Shown piece after piece: positions 13,787 through 21,123 of a DNA stretch of 21,123 nt (positions are counted from its first letter, which is position 1; every line of letters starts with the position of its first letter). Source of the DNA: a virus; the IMG/VR virus record IMGVR_UViG_3300003702_000055, positions 1 to 21,123 of that record, one strand, 5' to 3'. The notes under the pieces are model-generated. The model ran no database searches, was not told the origin of the DNA, and saw only the letters and a list, made by a program, of their open reading frames with translations. The position numbers and the translations under genes were made by a program.

Positions 13787-13794
13787 TATTTATA
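13787..13794. promoter_or_regulatory. TATTTATA octamer, gap element 1
   Basis: The octamer lies in the 111-base AT-rich gap after the giant gene, 75 bases before the ATG at 13869. It is the reverse complement of the T4 late promoter box TATAAATA. The same octamer recurs in the other larger gaps, suggesting a shared control element. The orientation in which it acts is unknown. Confidence 0.35.
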
Positions 13795-13868: not shown

Positions 13869-14018
13869 ATGGGATATTTAGATAATTCAAGCAGAGTATT
13901 GGACGCTATATTGACAAAGAAAGGTCGTGAGATTTTGTCAAGTGGTGGAGACTTTGAAGTCACTAAATTTGCACTCGGTGATGACGAAATTGATTATGTA
14001 TTATGGTGCAGTGATTGA
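13869..14018 (+). CDS. Array paralogue A, N-terminal fragment (frame broken)
   Basis: From ATG 13869 the frame encodes 49 residues beginning MGYLDNSSRVLDAILTKKGR and ending FALGDDEIDYVLW plus three unrelated residues and a TGA. The first 46 residues match the N-termini of the three following paralogues (14781, 15477, 15908). Homology then continues in the +1 frame (YYGAVIDNLPALEPF, from about 13999), so this is the 5' part of a disrupted gene. The break coincides with TATTATGG (13999-14006). In the paralogue at 14781 the two equivalent sites lie 35 bases apart, and losing 35 bases between them would give exactly the observed frame change. The fragment may be translated but lacks most of the protein. 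Either the gene is dead in this genome or the sequence has an assembly error here. Confidence 0.75.
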   Translation: MGYLDNSSRVLDAILTKKGREILSSGGDFEVTKFALGDDEIDYVLWCSD

Positions 14019-14742
14019 TAATTTACCAGCACTTGAGCCTTTTAATGATCCTTCTGAGATTATGAAGTATAAACTCGTATCGCGTACAGACGGTATTCGT
14101 GCAATGGCAAAGATAATTGAAACCCCTGGTTCACAAACATCTCTTAATGCTTTGAAGTTTTATGCAGATGATTTGTCAGGAGATGGTGGAACGAGAGTCC
14201 AATGTGGACAAACGGCCTATTATCTTGGATTAGGAACACAATTTGGGGTTGGTCATGTTAATAATAGTGATCTTACAATAGATTATGTTGGTGGTGAAGA
14301 TTCAATTTTCGAAGGTGGATATAAAGGCGAAGAATATACTATAACAGTATTGGATACAACCGTGGCAGTATTGGCACCGTTATATAGATCTGTTGAAGGT
14401 AGAGAGTACCCAGTAGTAGCAATGGGTGGTGGTGGAATGAGATCATCTGATAGAGCAAAATGGTTTCCATTCGTAAAATCAGTACAACATCTTTCACAGA
14501 CAATAAAGGGATGTAGGATAGACGCTGGTGGTGTTTTTAGACACCGTAGAGGTAATAGGTTTGCACCAACATTGAATGGGGCATTAGCACTATATCCGAA
14601 GAAGATTACATCGGCTTCGTCACCTGCAAAGACTTCCATATTGATTTCTGGGGAAATTTCAGGAGCAGTTTTAGAGTTTGATATCACAATAACATTTAGG
14701 CCAACAGGTACAAGACCAGCTGACGACGCAACATCTGCATAA
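13927..14742 (+). CDS. Array paralogue A, remainder in the +1 frame
   Basis: This open frame carries the rest of paralogue A. Its first 24 codons (from GTG 13927) are out-of-frame reading of the N-terminal domain and are probably not real protein. Homology to paralogue B begins at YYGAVIDNLPALEPF and EIMKYKLVSR. A Gly-rich middle follows (DSIFEGGYKGEEYTITVLD, VVAMGGGGMRSSDRAKWFP, FRHRRGNRF), then the C-terminal domain KTSILISGEISGAVLEFDIT, which aligns with the ends of B and of the ORF at 16839. A restart at the ATG near 14062 (MKYKL) is possible but has no good ribosome site. No signal peptide or membrane segment is seen. The role is probably a small virion or tail-associated protein, inferred from position. 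Confidence 0.7.
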   Translation: MRFCQVVETLKSLNLHSVMTKLIMYYGAVIDNLPALEPFNDPSEIMKYKLVSRTDGIRAMAKIIETPGSQTSLNALKFYADDLSGDGGTRVQCGQTAYYLGLGTQFGVGHVNNSDLTIDYVGGEDSIFEGGYKGEEYTITVLDTTVAVLAPLYRSVEGREYPVVAMGGGGMRSSDRAKWFPFVKSVQHLSQTIKGCRIDAGGVFRHRRGNRFAPTLNGALALYPKKITSASSPAKTSILISGEISGAVLEFDITITFRPTGTRPADDATSA

Positions 14743-19410: not shown

Positions 19411-20583
19411 ATGTATAAGGATATATCTCCTGACGATAAATCAATAAAAGCCTTTAAAACTTATAAAAAATTTACTTTTACAAATGCTGATAGTGGAAGT
19501 GGAGTATATGGGTTGGAAGGTATAAGTGGAAGTTTTCATAATTTTATTCCACCAAGTGGTTCTACAAGGTCCCCAGAAGCTTCTCAAAGTTATGGTACAT
19601 TTAATGAACTTTCACAGAGTCAAGGTAAAGAATGGCATACTTGGTGGAGTGATGGAACATTTTTTAAACTTCCACTGTATTATGAAATTAGAAATCTGTA
19701 TTATCAATATGATCAACCTAATAATCCAAAAGCAAACAATACAAGATACCCTTTATATGCCGGTGGGAATTGGAGTAGAAAATGGCCTCATGGTAGAGAA
19801 GATTCTGATTGGGGCACAATAAATCCTCGTAAACTTGAAAGTAAAGTAAATGTTATAACAATTCCACAAGAGTATTTCGGTGAAGAAATAAAACCATATT
19901 CAGTTAGAATTTTAGATGATAGTTGGACGGAAACATTAGATTTACGAGATGATGGCCACGGACAACTTTATGATTATAAATATTCATCAAGTTTTGCAGC
20001 AGGAACTCCGTCAGGAACACCACTATCTGGAAGTGTTATTGGTAATGTATTTTATGAACATGGAATTATAACAATTACTGATACTGGTTCTGCATATATA
20101 TCAGCCAGTCTTGGAGATGGCACATTACCAAGTGGACAATATGCGGGAAGTGATGGATTTGAAGTAGAGTTTCAGGCAACAAAAACTTCTTATGAATATG
20201 AATATATGTGTCACATAGATGAATATCAATATACGGGTACTACAAATCCAAGTGTAGTTGTTGGTAGAAGTGGTAGTATTTTTGTTCCAGAAGGTGCTAA
20301 ATATATTTATGATGGCCAGATGTTTCCAGGTTATGGTAAAGAGCCTAAGTATGAAAGTACTATAGATTTGGTATTAACACCGGCAAGTGGTTCTTATAAA
20401 TCATTTTATAATTCAGGAAATTATTATCAAAATTTTACAACACATTCAGAATTTGGGACTTATGTTACTAATATAGGTCTTTATAATGATGAACGAGAAC
20501 TATTAATTATAGCAAAGTTATCAAAACCGATTAAAAACGATAAAGATTTACCACTATCATTTTTAATTCGTTTTGATTCGTAA
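19411..20583 (+). CDS. Diverged member of family G (390 aa)
   Basis: This protein shares the C-terminal signature with the previous two (YVTNIGLYNDERELLIIAKL, then SKPI and a final FLIRFDS) and a similar middle order: IPQEYFGEEIKP, VRILDDSWTETLDL in place of the LIDDSG block, and NVFYEHGIITITDTG in place of YPEMGMIVLN. The N-terminal 130 residues are different: aromatic-rich (KEWHTWWSDGTFFKLPLYYE, NWSRKWPHG) and without the YYYDV and VQFAV blocks. This suggests the same fold with an exchanged N-terminal portion. An AGGAG lies 8 bases upstream of ATG 19411. It is probably a third virion component attached through the common C-terminal part. Confidence 0.78.
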   Translation: MYKDISPDDKSIKAFKTYKKFTFTNADSGSGVYGLEGISGSFHNFIPPSGSTRSPEASQSYGTFNELSQSQGKEWHTWWSDGTFFKLPLYYEIRNLYYQYDQPNNPKANNTRYPLYAGGNWSRKWPHGREDSDWGTINPRKLESKVNVITIPQEYFGEEIKPYSVRILDDSWTETLDLRDDGHGQLYDYKYSSSFAAGTPSGTPLSGSVIGNVFYEHGIITITDTGSAYISASLGDGTLPSGQYAGSDGFEVEFQATKTSYEYEYMCHIDEYQYTGTTNPSVVVGRSGSIFVPEGAKYIYDGQMFPGYGKEPKYESTIDLVLTPASGSYKSFYNSGNYYQNFTTHSEFGTYVTNIGLYNDERELLIIAKLSKPIKNDKDLPLSFLIRFDS

Positions 20584-20601
20584 AATTCGCCGTATATATT
20601 A

Positions 20602-20609
20602 TATTTATT
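20602..20609. promoter_or_regulatory. TATTTATT variant octamer, gap element 4
   Basis: It differs from the other gap octamers by the last base. It is followed about 16 bases later by AATATAATATAGGAG, which holds a TATAAT box overlapping the ribosome-site region of the next gene. The promoter call is tentative. Confidence 0.3.
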
Positions 20610-20645
20610 AGTATAACGAAAACAATATAATATAGGAGAATACTC

Positions 20646-20993
20646 GTGGACAACCAAGCACAAGGTCTTATCGAGGGGTTGATAGGACAATATGGTTGGT
20701 TATTTTTAGCAGGAGTGGTAACACTCATCTTTCAAAATACCATAAGAGAAGCAGTTGATGGTTTCATGGTCTTTTTAGGTAACGACTATAACGAAGATGA
20801 TGTCGTAACAGTTGATGGAGAACCTGGTCGTATAGTACGAGTCAGTATGTGGAAAACTGTATTTTTTATCTATCATATAATAGATGGTAAAATAGTAGGT
20901 GGTTCTAAATTAGTAGTAGCAAATTCTAAATTAAAAGATCTAAAAATCGAAAAACCATTGGCCAATCTTGATTTATCCAAATATGAAAAATAA
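20646..20993 (+). CDS. Miniature MscS-like membrane protein (115 aa)
   Basis: It probably forms or mimics a membrane pore. Residues 16-44 form one hydrophobic helix (WLFLAGVVTLIFQNTIREAV) in the place of the pore-lining third helix of MscS, with NTIREAVDGFMVFLG corresponding to the N..aG..i...E part. Residues 47-96 match the MscS beta domain: YNEDDVVTVDGEPGRIVRVS corresponds to the vGD.i...G..G.V.eI pattern, and a KLVVANSKLKD end resembles the iPNs.l motif. E. coli MscS has 286 residues; the first two helices and the C-terminal cage are missing here. The start is GTG with AGGAG at 20634-20638, 7 bases upstream. It follows virion genes and precedes a secreted-protein gene, so a role in lysis, osmotic protection or DNA entry is possible but unproven. 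Confidence 0.72.
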   Translation: MDNQAQGLIEGLIGQYGWLFLAGVVTLIFQNTIREAVDGFMVFLGNDYNEDDVVTVDGEPGRIVRVSMWKTVFFIYHIIDGKIVGGSKLVVANSKLKDLKIEKPLANLDLSKYEK

Positions 20994-21041: not shown

Positions 21042-21123
21042 ATGATGAAAAAATTACTTATTTTGTTGCTATTATCAACAACATTATATAGTCAAGATTT
21101 TATAGTAAACTTTTTTAAGTATT
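21042..21123 (+). CDS. Secreted protein, 3' truncated by the window edge
   Basis: The frame runs open to the right edge and encodes 27 residues. It begins MMKKLLILLLLSTTLYSQ, a textbook type I signal peptide with a KK n-region, a Leu-rich core and a likely cut before Gln19, then DFIVNFFKY. Gln directly after cleavage is common in Bacteroidota exported proteins. GGAG lies at 21034-21037; either ATG 21042 or ATG 21045 may be used. Nothing can be said about the mature protein. Confidence 0.7.
   Translation, partial: MMKKLLILLLLSTTLYSQDFIVNFFKY

Follow-up and report, generated by a model that had tools for sequence, protein, structure and literature searches.

A virus-specific protein homologous to the pore-helix and beta-domain module of MscS channels

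Near the end of a 21,123-base stretch of viral DNA lies an open reading frame that was originally predicted to encode just the pore helix and beta domain of MscS. This raises two questions: is the protein a true relative of the MscS channels, and what might so reduced a protein do for a virus? The stretch, called the window below, is a complete virus record, in which baseplate-type genes are followed by a very large tail-region protein, several tail-type genes and then the gene of interest, vMscS (minimal MscS-like protein). The reading frame lies exactly where it had been placed, beginning at a GTG codon with an AGGAG ribosome site upstream, and the encoded protein is MDNQAQGLIEGLIGQYGWLFLAGVVTLIFQNTIREAVDGFMVFLGNDYNEDDVVTVDGEPGRIVRVSMWKTVFFIYHIIDGKIVGGSKLVVANSKLKDLKIEKPLANLDLSKYEK. 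The features are as follows.

19411-20583, + strand: upstream virion/tail-region gene, 390 aa, marking the insertion slot
20601-20610, + strand: promoter-like element ATATTTATTA upstream of vMscS (enrichment upstream of family genes)
20646-20993, + strand: minimal MscS-like protein (vMscS), 115 aa (open reading frame, Pfam, fold, dN/dS 0.05-0.13)
20691-20735, + strand: hydrophobic helix, residues ~16-30, counterpart of MscS TM3a (model helix 2-46; hydropathy and acidic N-terminus in 39/39)
20736-20783, + strand: TM3b-like segment, residues ~31-46 (in-register profile alignments; near-invariant L27, F29, I33, G39, F43)
20784-20939, + strand: beta domain, residues ~47-98, with a lengthened hairpin and the motif (A/Q/E)N (modelled strands and helix; invariant residues)
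21043-21123, + strand: first part of the downstream signal-peptide protein, which runs past the end of the window (relatives; predicted fold of homologues)

With the window protein as sole query, 95 related stretches of viral contigs were confirmed. Searching viral contigs with an alignment gave 387, and two further alignment searches gave 183 and 148 that overlap the earlier sets. Nearly all complete members are 110-150 aa in length. Comparison of the window gene with 14 close relatives gave dN/dS values of 0.05-0.13; vMscS is under strong purifying selection and, with its hundreds of viral relatives, is a real gene. One contig (L019, shared with L099 and L312) has a second, diverged minimal MscS-like gene at L019:6709-7035, 360 bp past the first, whose IIPN motif is nearer to that of cellular MscS.

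The carriers are uncultured viral sequences, many of them large (70-200 kb). The single match in an 84,980-species genome collection (L159, NZIO01000021.1) is a contig in a Candidatus Pelagibacter MAG. This contig carries phage-type genes together with the same vMscS neighbours as the viral loci, and probably belongs to a phage that was binned together with its host. Five queries of 50,697 deposited phage records gave no vMscS match but one by chance, a plasmid search gave none, and no PHROGs family matched. The vMscS family is thus essentially viral, and virus-specific.

The MscS superfamily is recognized by a region of ~90 residues comprising the pore-lining helix and the upper vestibule (PMC4560390), and homology to this region was found for vMscS by Pfam, profile and structural comparison. 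On its own the window protein matches Pfam PF00924 over residues 31-73 with E 0.038 and 14.6 bits, below the curated cut-off of 20.2 bits. The family is however matched by 38 of 39 relatives (best E 5.3e-6), so that the predicted profile match holds for the relatives but falls short for the window protein alone. Homologues above the cut-off are L336 (30.0 bits), L052 and L159 (25.4), the second copy in L019 (24.1), L332 (22.6) and L156 (20.7). A subfamily B, comprising L332, L336, L422-L438 and the tandem second copy in L019, is without the long hairpin and mostly retains the classical PN motif (VVPNEKL); the motif is VPN in subfamily B, and N only in subfamily A, to which the window gene belongs.

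In a profile-profile comparison the joint vMscS profile and that of Pelagibacterales MscS stayed in register all the way from the pore helix through the PN motif. The score was 39.1 (single-comparison E 4.7e-5), and none of 60 column-shuffled controls scored above 21.1. The viral profile was also used to search 399 genomes of the phylum to which the Pelagibacter MAG with the single cellular-bin match belongs. This retrieved two MscS proteins of the ordinary kind (E 4.1e-9 and 5.6e-7, in frames of 300 and 594 aa) as well as the phage-like contig of that MAG. The profile of the window-type subfamily alone found only chance acyltransferase matches in the PDB; when subfamily B was added, MscS came to the top of the search. 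Matches to NifZ, Csx20 and tape-measure proteins were dismissed as chance. The resemblance to MscS exceeds chance and, on the basis of the Pfam matches in relatives, the profile alignments and the structural matches given below, vMscS is homologous to the MscS pore-helix-plus-beta-domain module.

The assembly-bearing beta domain is common to vMscS and MscS, and would allow dominant-negative interference with the host channel through mixed assembly, one of the roles originally suggested. We regard this as very improbable. Identity to Pelagibacterales MscS, the one cellular set compared and possibly not that of the hosts, is ~20% over the aligned module, and a single, highly conserved viral family spread across many phage lineages is unlike a part that is matched to the channel of each host.

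The AlphaFold (AF2) model of the vMscS monomer (pLDDT 77.5, pTM 0.54) has a helix at 2-46, strands at 53-56, 59-66, 70-79 and 82-92, and a short helix at 93-98, so the expected beta domain is predicted rather than lacking. On comparison of the model with the PDB the first 40 matches were all MscS-family channels, with E from 2.5e-4. The match to MSL10 extends over 86 columns with an rmsd of 2.3 Å, and must therefore include part of the helix. In agreement with the membrane helix originally proposed, residues ~12-31 form a hydrophobic helix in 39/39 aligned members. Their N-termini are all net acidic, which fits an N-out, C-in orientation like that of MscS TM3.

Within the beta domain D51, D52, G58, R62, R65, F73, K88 and N93 are invariant in the family, while L27, F29, I33, G39 and F43 are near-invariant in the stretch equivalent to TM3. 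We take the aligned register to place the polar residue 30 of vMscS at MscS Q112, position 31 at G113 and G39 at G121. The hinge position 31 is S, N, T or A in all members; the equivalent of the G121 kink is G in 35/39. The family therefore lacks the canonical combination of G113 hinge and G121 kink. The TM1-TM2 tension sensor is absent, there being one helix where a canonical MscS channel has three, and so is the C-terminal alpha/beta cage, since the chain ends shortly past the beta domain. Both absences had been predicted, and vMscS consists of almost nothing but the module that defines the superfamily. The helix is poorer in Gly and Ala than TM3a, and across the family the beta domain is better conserved than the helix.

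The near-invariance of the beta-domain residues while the helix drifts could mean that the MscS module has been reused as a non-conducting, membrane-anchored beta-ring adaptor, that is an oligomeric platform at the inner membrane for a partner from phage or host. The loss of the hinge and sensor elements is in keeping with this, as is the extended hairpin, a subfamily-specific addition not found in subfamily B. But L27, F29, the polar residue 30, I33, G39 and F43 of the TM3-equivalent stretch are kept as well, and would be unneeded in a plain anchor. We think an adaptor unlikely, though it deserves consideration.

When might the gene be expressed? The window has five intergenic gaps of at least 38 bp, and each contains TATTTATWW on the coding strand, at positions 13787, 14760, 17193, 20602 and 21004. 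These sites precede three tail-gene units, the vMscS gene and a downstream gene encoding a putative barrel protein (below), placing the element before every transcription-unit start of the tail region. In a 106-kb relative 12 of the 34 coding-strand copies fall in intergenic bases, which make up 2.1% of the sequence; of the 19 copies on the opposite strand, 1 does. For this and other context counts we used 115 distinct vMscS genes from the fetched loci; TATTTAT lies no more than 100 nt upstream of 66 of these, against 230 of 1714 other open reading frames. TATTTATWW is a candidate promoter of this phage group, and reads as the reverse complement of what we take to be the T4 late element, TATAAATA. 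The sequence suggests that vMscS has its own promoter resembling those of the tail genes, and because the element is common to both, expression is probably late.

We note in passing that the tail-region gene at 13869-14742 of the window is split across two frames, and is unsplit in relatives. The ATG at 13869 opens MGYLDNSSRVLDAILTKKGRE, which stops near 14015, and the remainder is found in a 271-aa reading frame from 13927. This is a frameshift, arising by mutation or in assembly.

In the window lineage vMscS lies between the 390-aa tail-region gene and the gene of the signal-peptide protein. Nothing lies in the slot between these two genes in L337 and L340. L339 has an unrelated small reading frame there, L332 and L336 have a subfamily B gene, and the window, L331 and L334 have one of subfamily A. 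The varied filling of the slot indicates an accessory cassette, and vMscS, preceded by a promoter-like element of its own, behaves as a single-gene accessory unit. It does follow a tail gene, as the original prediction of a late virion-gene operon has it, but it is more than a plain member of the tail operon. Likewise the gene keeps its place within some lineages, but many other contexts are found elsewhere. In other lineages its neighbours include ribonucleotide reductase (RNR), AAA ATPase, pilin-like, TonB-like and nuclease genes, and in 38/115 cases both flanking genes are on the opposite strand. With such varied neighbours the context indicates no single process.

Gain and loss from a slot, an individual promoter-like element and flanking genes on the opposite strand would all suit a membrane protein of the moron type that keeps the genomes of competing phages out, giving superinfection exclusion or protection. 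Exclusion proteins are however usually early, whereas the promoter-like element of the tail genes suggests late expression, and sequence comparison connected vMscS to no known exclusion protein. This role seems to us distinctly unlikely.

The downstream neighbour had been called a secreted-protein gene. It has a signal peptide, but its homologues are predicted to be outer-membrane beta-barrels, with autotransporter barrels and porins as PDB matches; the model is moderate (pLDDT 68.5) and the TM-scores to these matches are low. The barrel protein (L083:8403-9686 and relatives, starting at 21043 in the window) is widespread, with 305 related stretches in viral contigs, and has no Pfam or PHROG match. 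An obligate pairing with vMscS was rejected, as the vMscS gene is present within 4 kb in just 7 of 43 fully flanked barrel loci.

Two further groups of genes were observed around these loci. Type IV pilin-like clusters with GFTLIEL signals (L083:11519-13586, L116, L125, L126 and L132) adjoin thioredoxin-like, TonB C-terminal-like and lipoprotein genes, forming an envelope-directed gene set. A conserved hydrophobic protein of 73 aa (L126:8562-8783 and relatives), for which no family match was found, is often the opposite-strand neighbour of vMscS.

A connection with lysis is seen in one lineage, to which the holin linkage is confined. Of the 115 distinct genes, 29 are divergent from a PF23987 holin gene across a gap of 33-55 bp (mostly 36-37), and 30 have a LysM/lysozyme endolysin nearby. 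A Phage_lysozyme search of 15 large relatives gave one sub-threshold match. A small, single-helix membrane protein that is probably late, and adjoins holin and endolysin genes, might itself be a holin-like or pinholin-like pore acting directly in lysis. Yet a separate, recognized holin stands beside vMscS in that very lineage, most lineages have no adjacent lysis gene, and strong conservation of a folded beta domain is not typical of holins; we therefore consider a direct lysis protein improbable. No holin family matched vMscS apart from one PHROG at chance level (E 0.29, one member). The Pfam-recognized holin gene next door led us to reject vMscS as sole holin in this lineage, where it is not the only small membrane protein of the lysis cassette.

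The reading that we favour, tentatively and at somewhat less than even likelihood, is that vMscS is an oligomeric inner-membrane pore or valve that acts late on turgor or on the timing of lysis. We infer its orientation, oligomerization, conduction and function as follows. The single helix would insert N-out, C-in, the beta domains would join subunits into a ring, and the helices would line a pore in the inner membrane through which ions or small solutes leak, either under tension or constitutively. Less certainly, vMscS would act late in infection, bleeding turgor or setting the time or manner of lysis; a role at the lysis stage is favoured by the holin linkage in the one lineage. Against a pore we count the lower Gly and Ala content of the helix relative to TM3a, the replacement of the G113 hinge by S, N, T or A, and the lack of a tension-sensing TM1-TM2 paddle. 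The greater conservation of the beta domain over the helix also counts against it, and could mean that partner binding matters more.

A fuller version of the valve seems to us doubtful. In this version vMscS proteins would be the smallest natural MscS-type channels, with one helix per subunit and no paddle, serving as a late inner-membrane valve that controls turgor and lysis timing together with the holin and, in some phages, with an outer-membrane barrel. In any event, nature has isolated in vMscS the defining module of the superfamily, pore helix and beta ring. If it conducts, it would offer a minimal system for testing which features are essential to an MscS pore and whether gating by tension requires the sensor paddle, and would give tailed phages a new channel family and uncultured phages a possible control point for lysis.

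No single-helix, phage-specific MscS family was found described in the open-access literature or in curated phage families. If vMscS forms a pore, it may be the smallest of MscS type in nature. In giant algal viruses MscS- or MscL-like genes of unknown function have been reported (PMC6163359); the single MscS-like protein in that account, from an algal virus, has 261 aa and three transmembrane helices, the others are MscL-like, and none is from a tailed phage. A virome paper of 2026 mentions viral mechanosensitive channels, naming MscL (PMC13288924). Three unnamed small viral proteins in BFVD (A0A1B1IQW5, A0A516MLU7 and A0A516LVN0) resemble vMscS in fold (Foldseek E 4.5e-10 to 3.4e-6) and in size, and A0A1B1IQW5 may belong to the family. 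Phage holins (such as PF23987, the Pam3 gp28 family) are likewise small phage proteins of the inner membrane, encoded next door in one lineage, but they are unrelated in sequence and have no MscS beta domain. The closest comparison is with the MscS superfamily itself (E. coli MscS, YnaI, YbiO and plant MSL10; PF00924), whose pore-helix and beta-domain module is in register with vMscS and has the same predicted fold. By contrast with those channels, vMscS has a single transmembrane helix where they have at least three, has no paddle, cage or G113 hinge, carries a longer beta hairpin in the subfamily of the window, and is specific to viruses.
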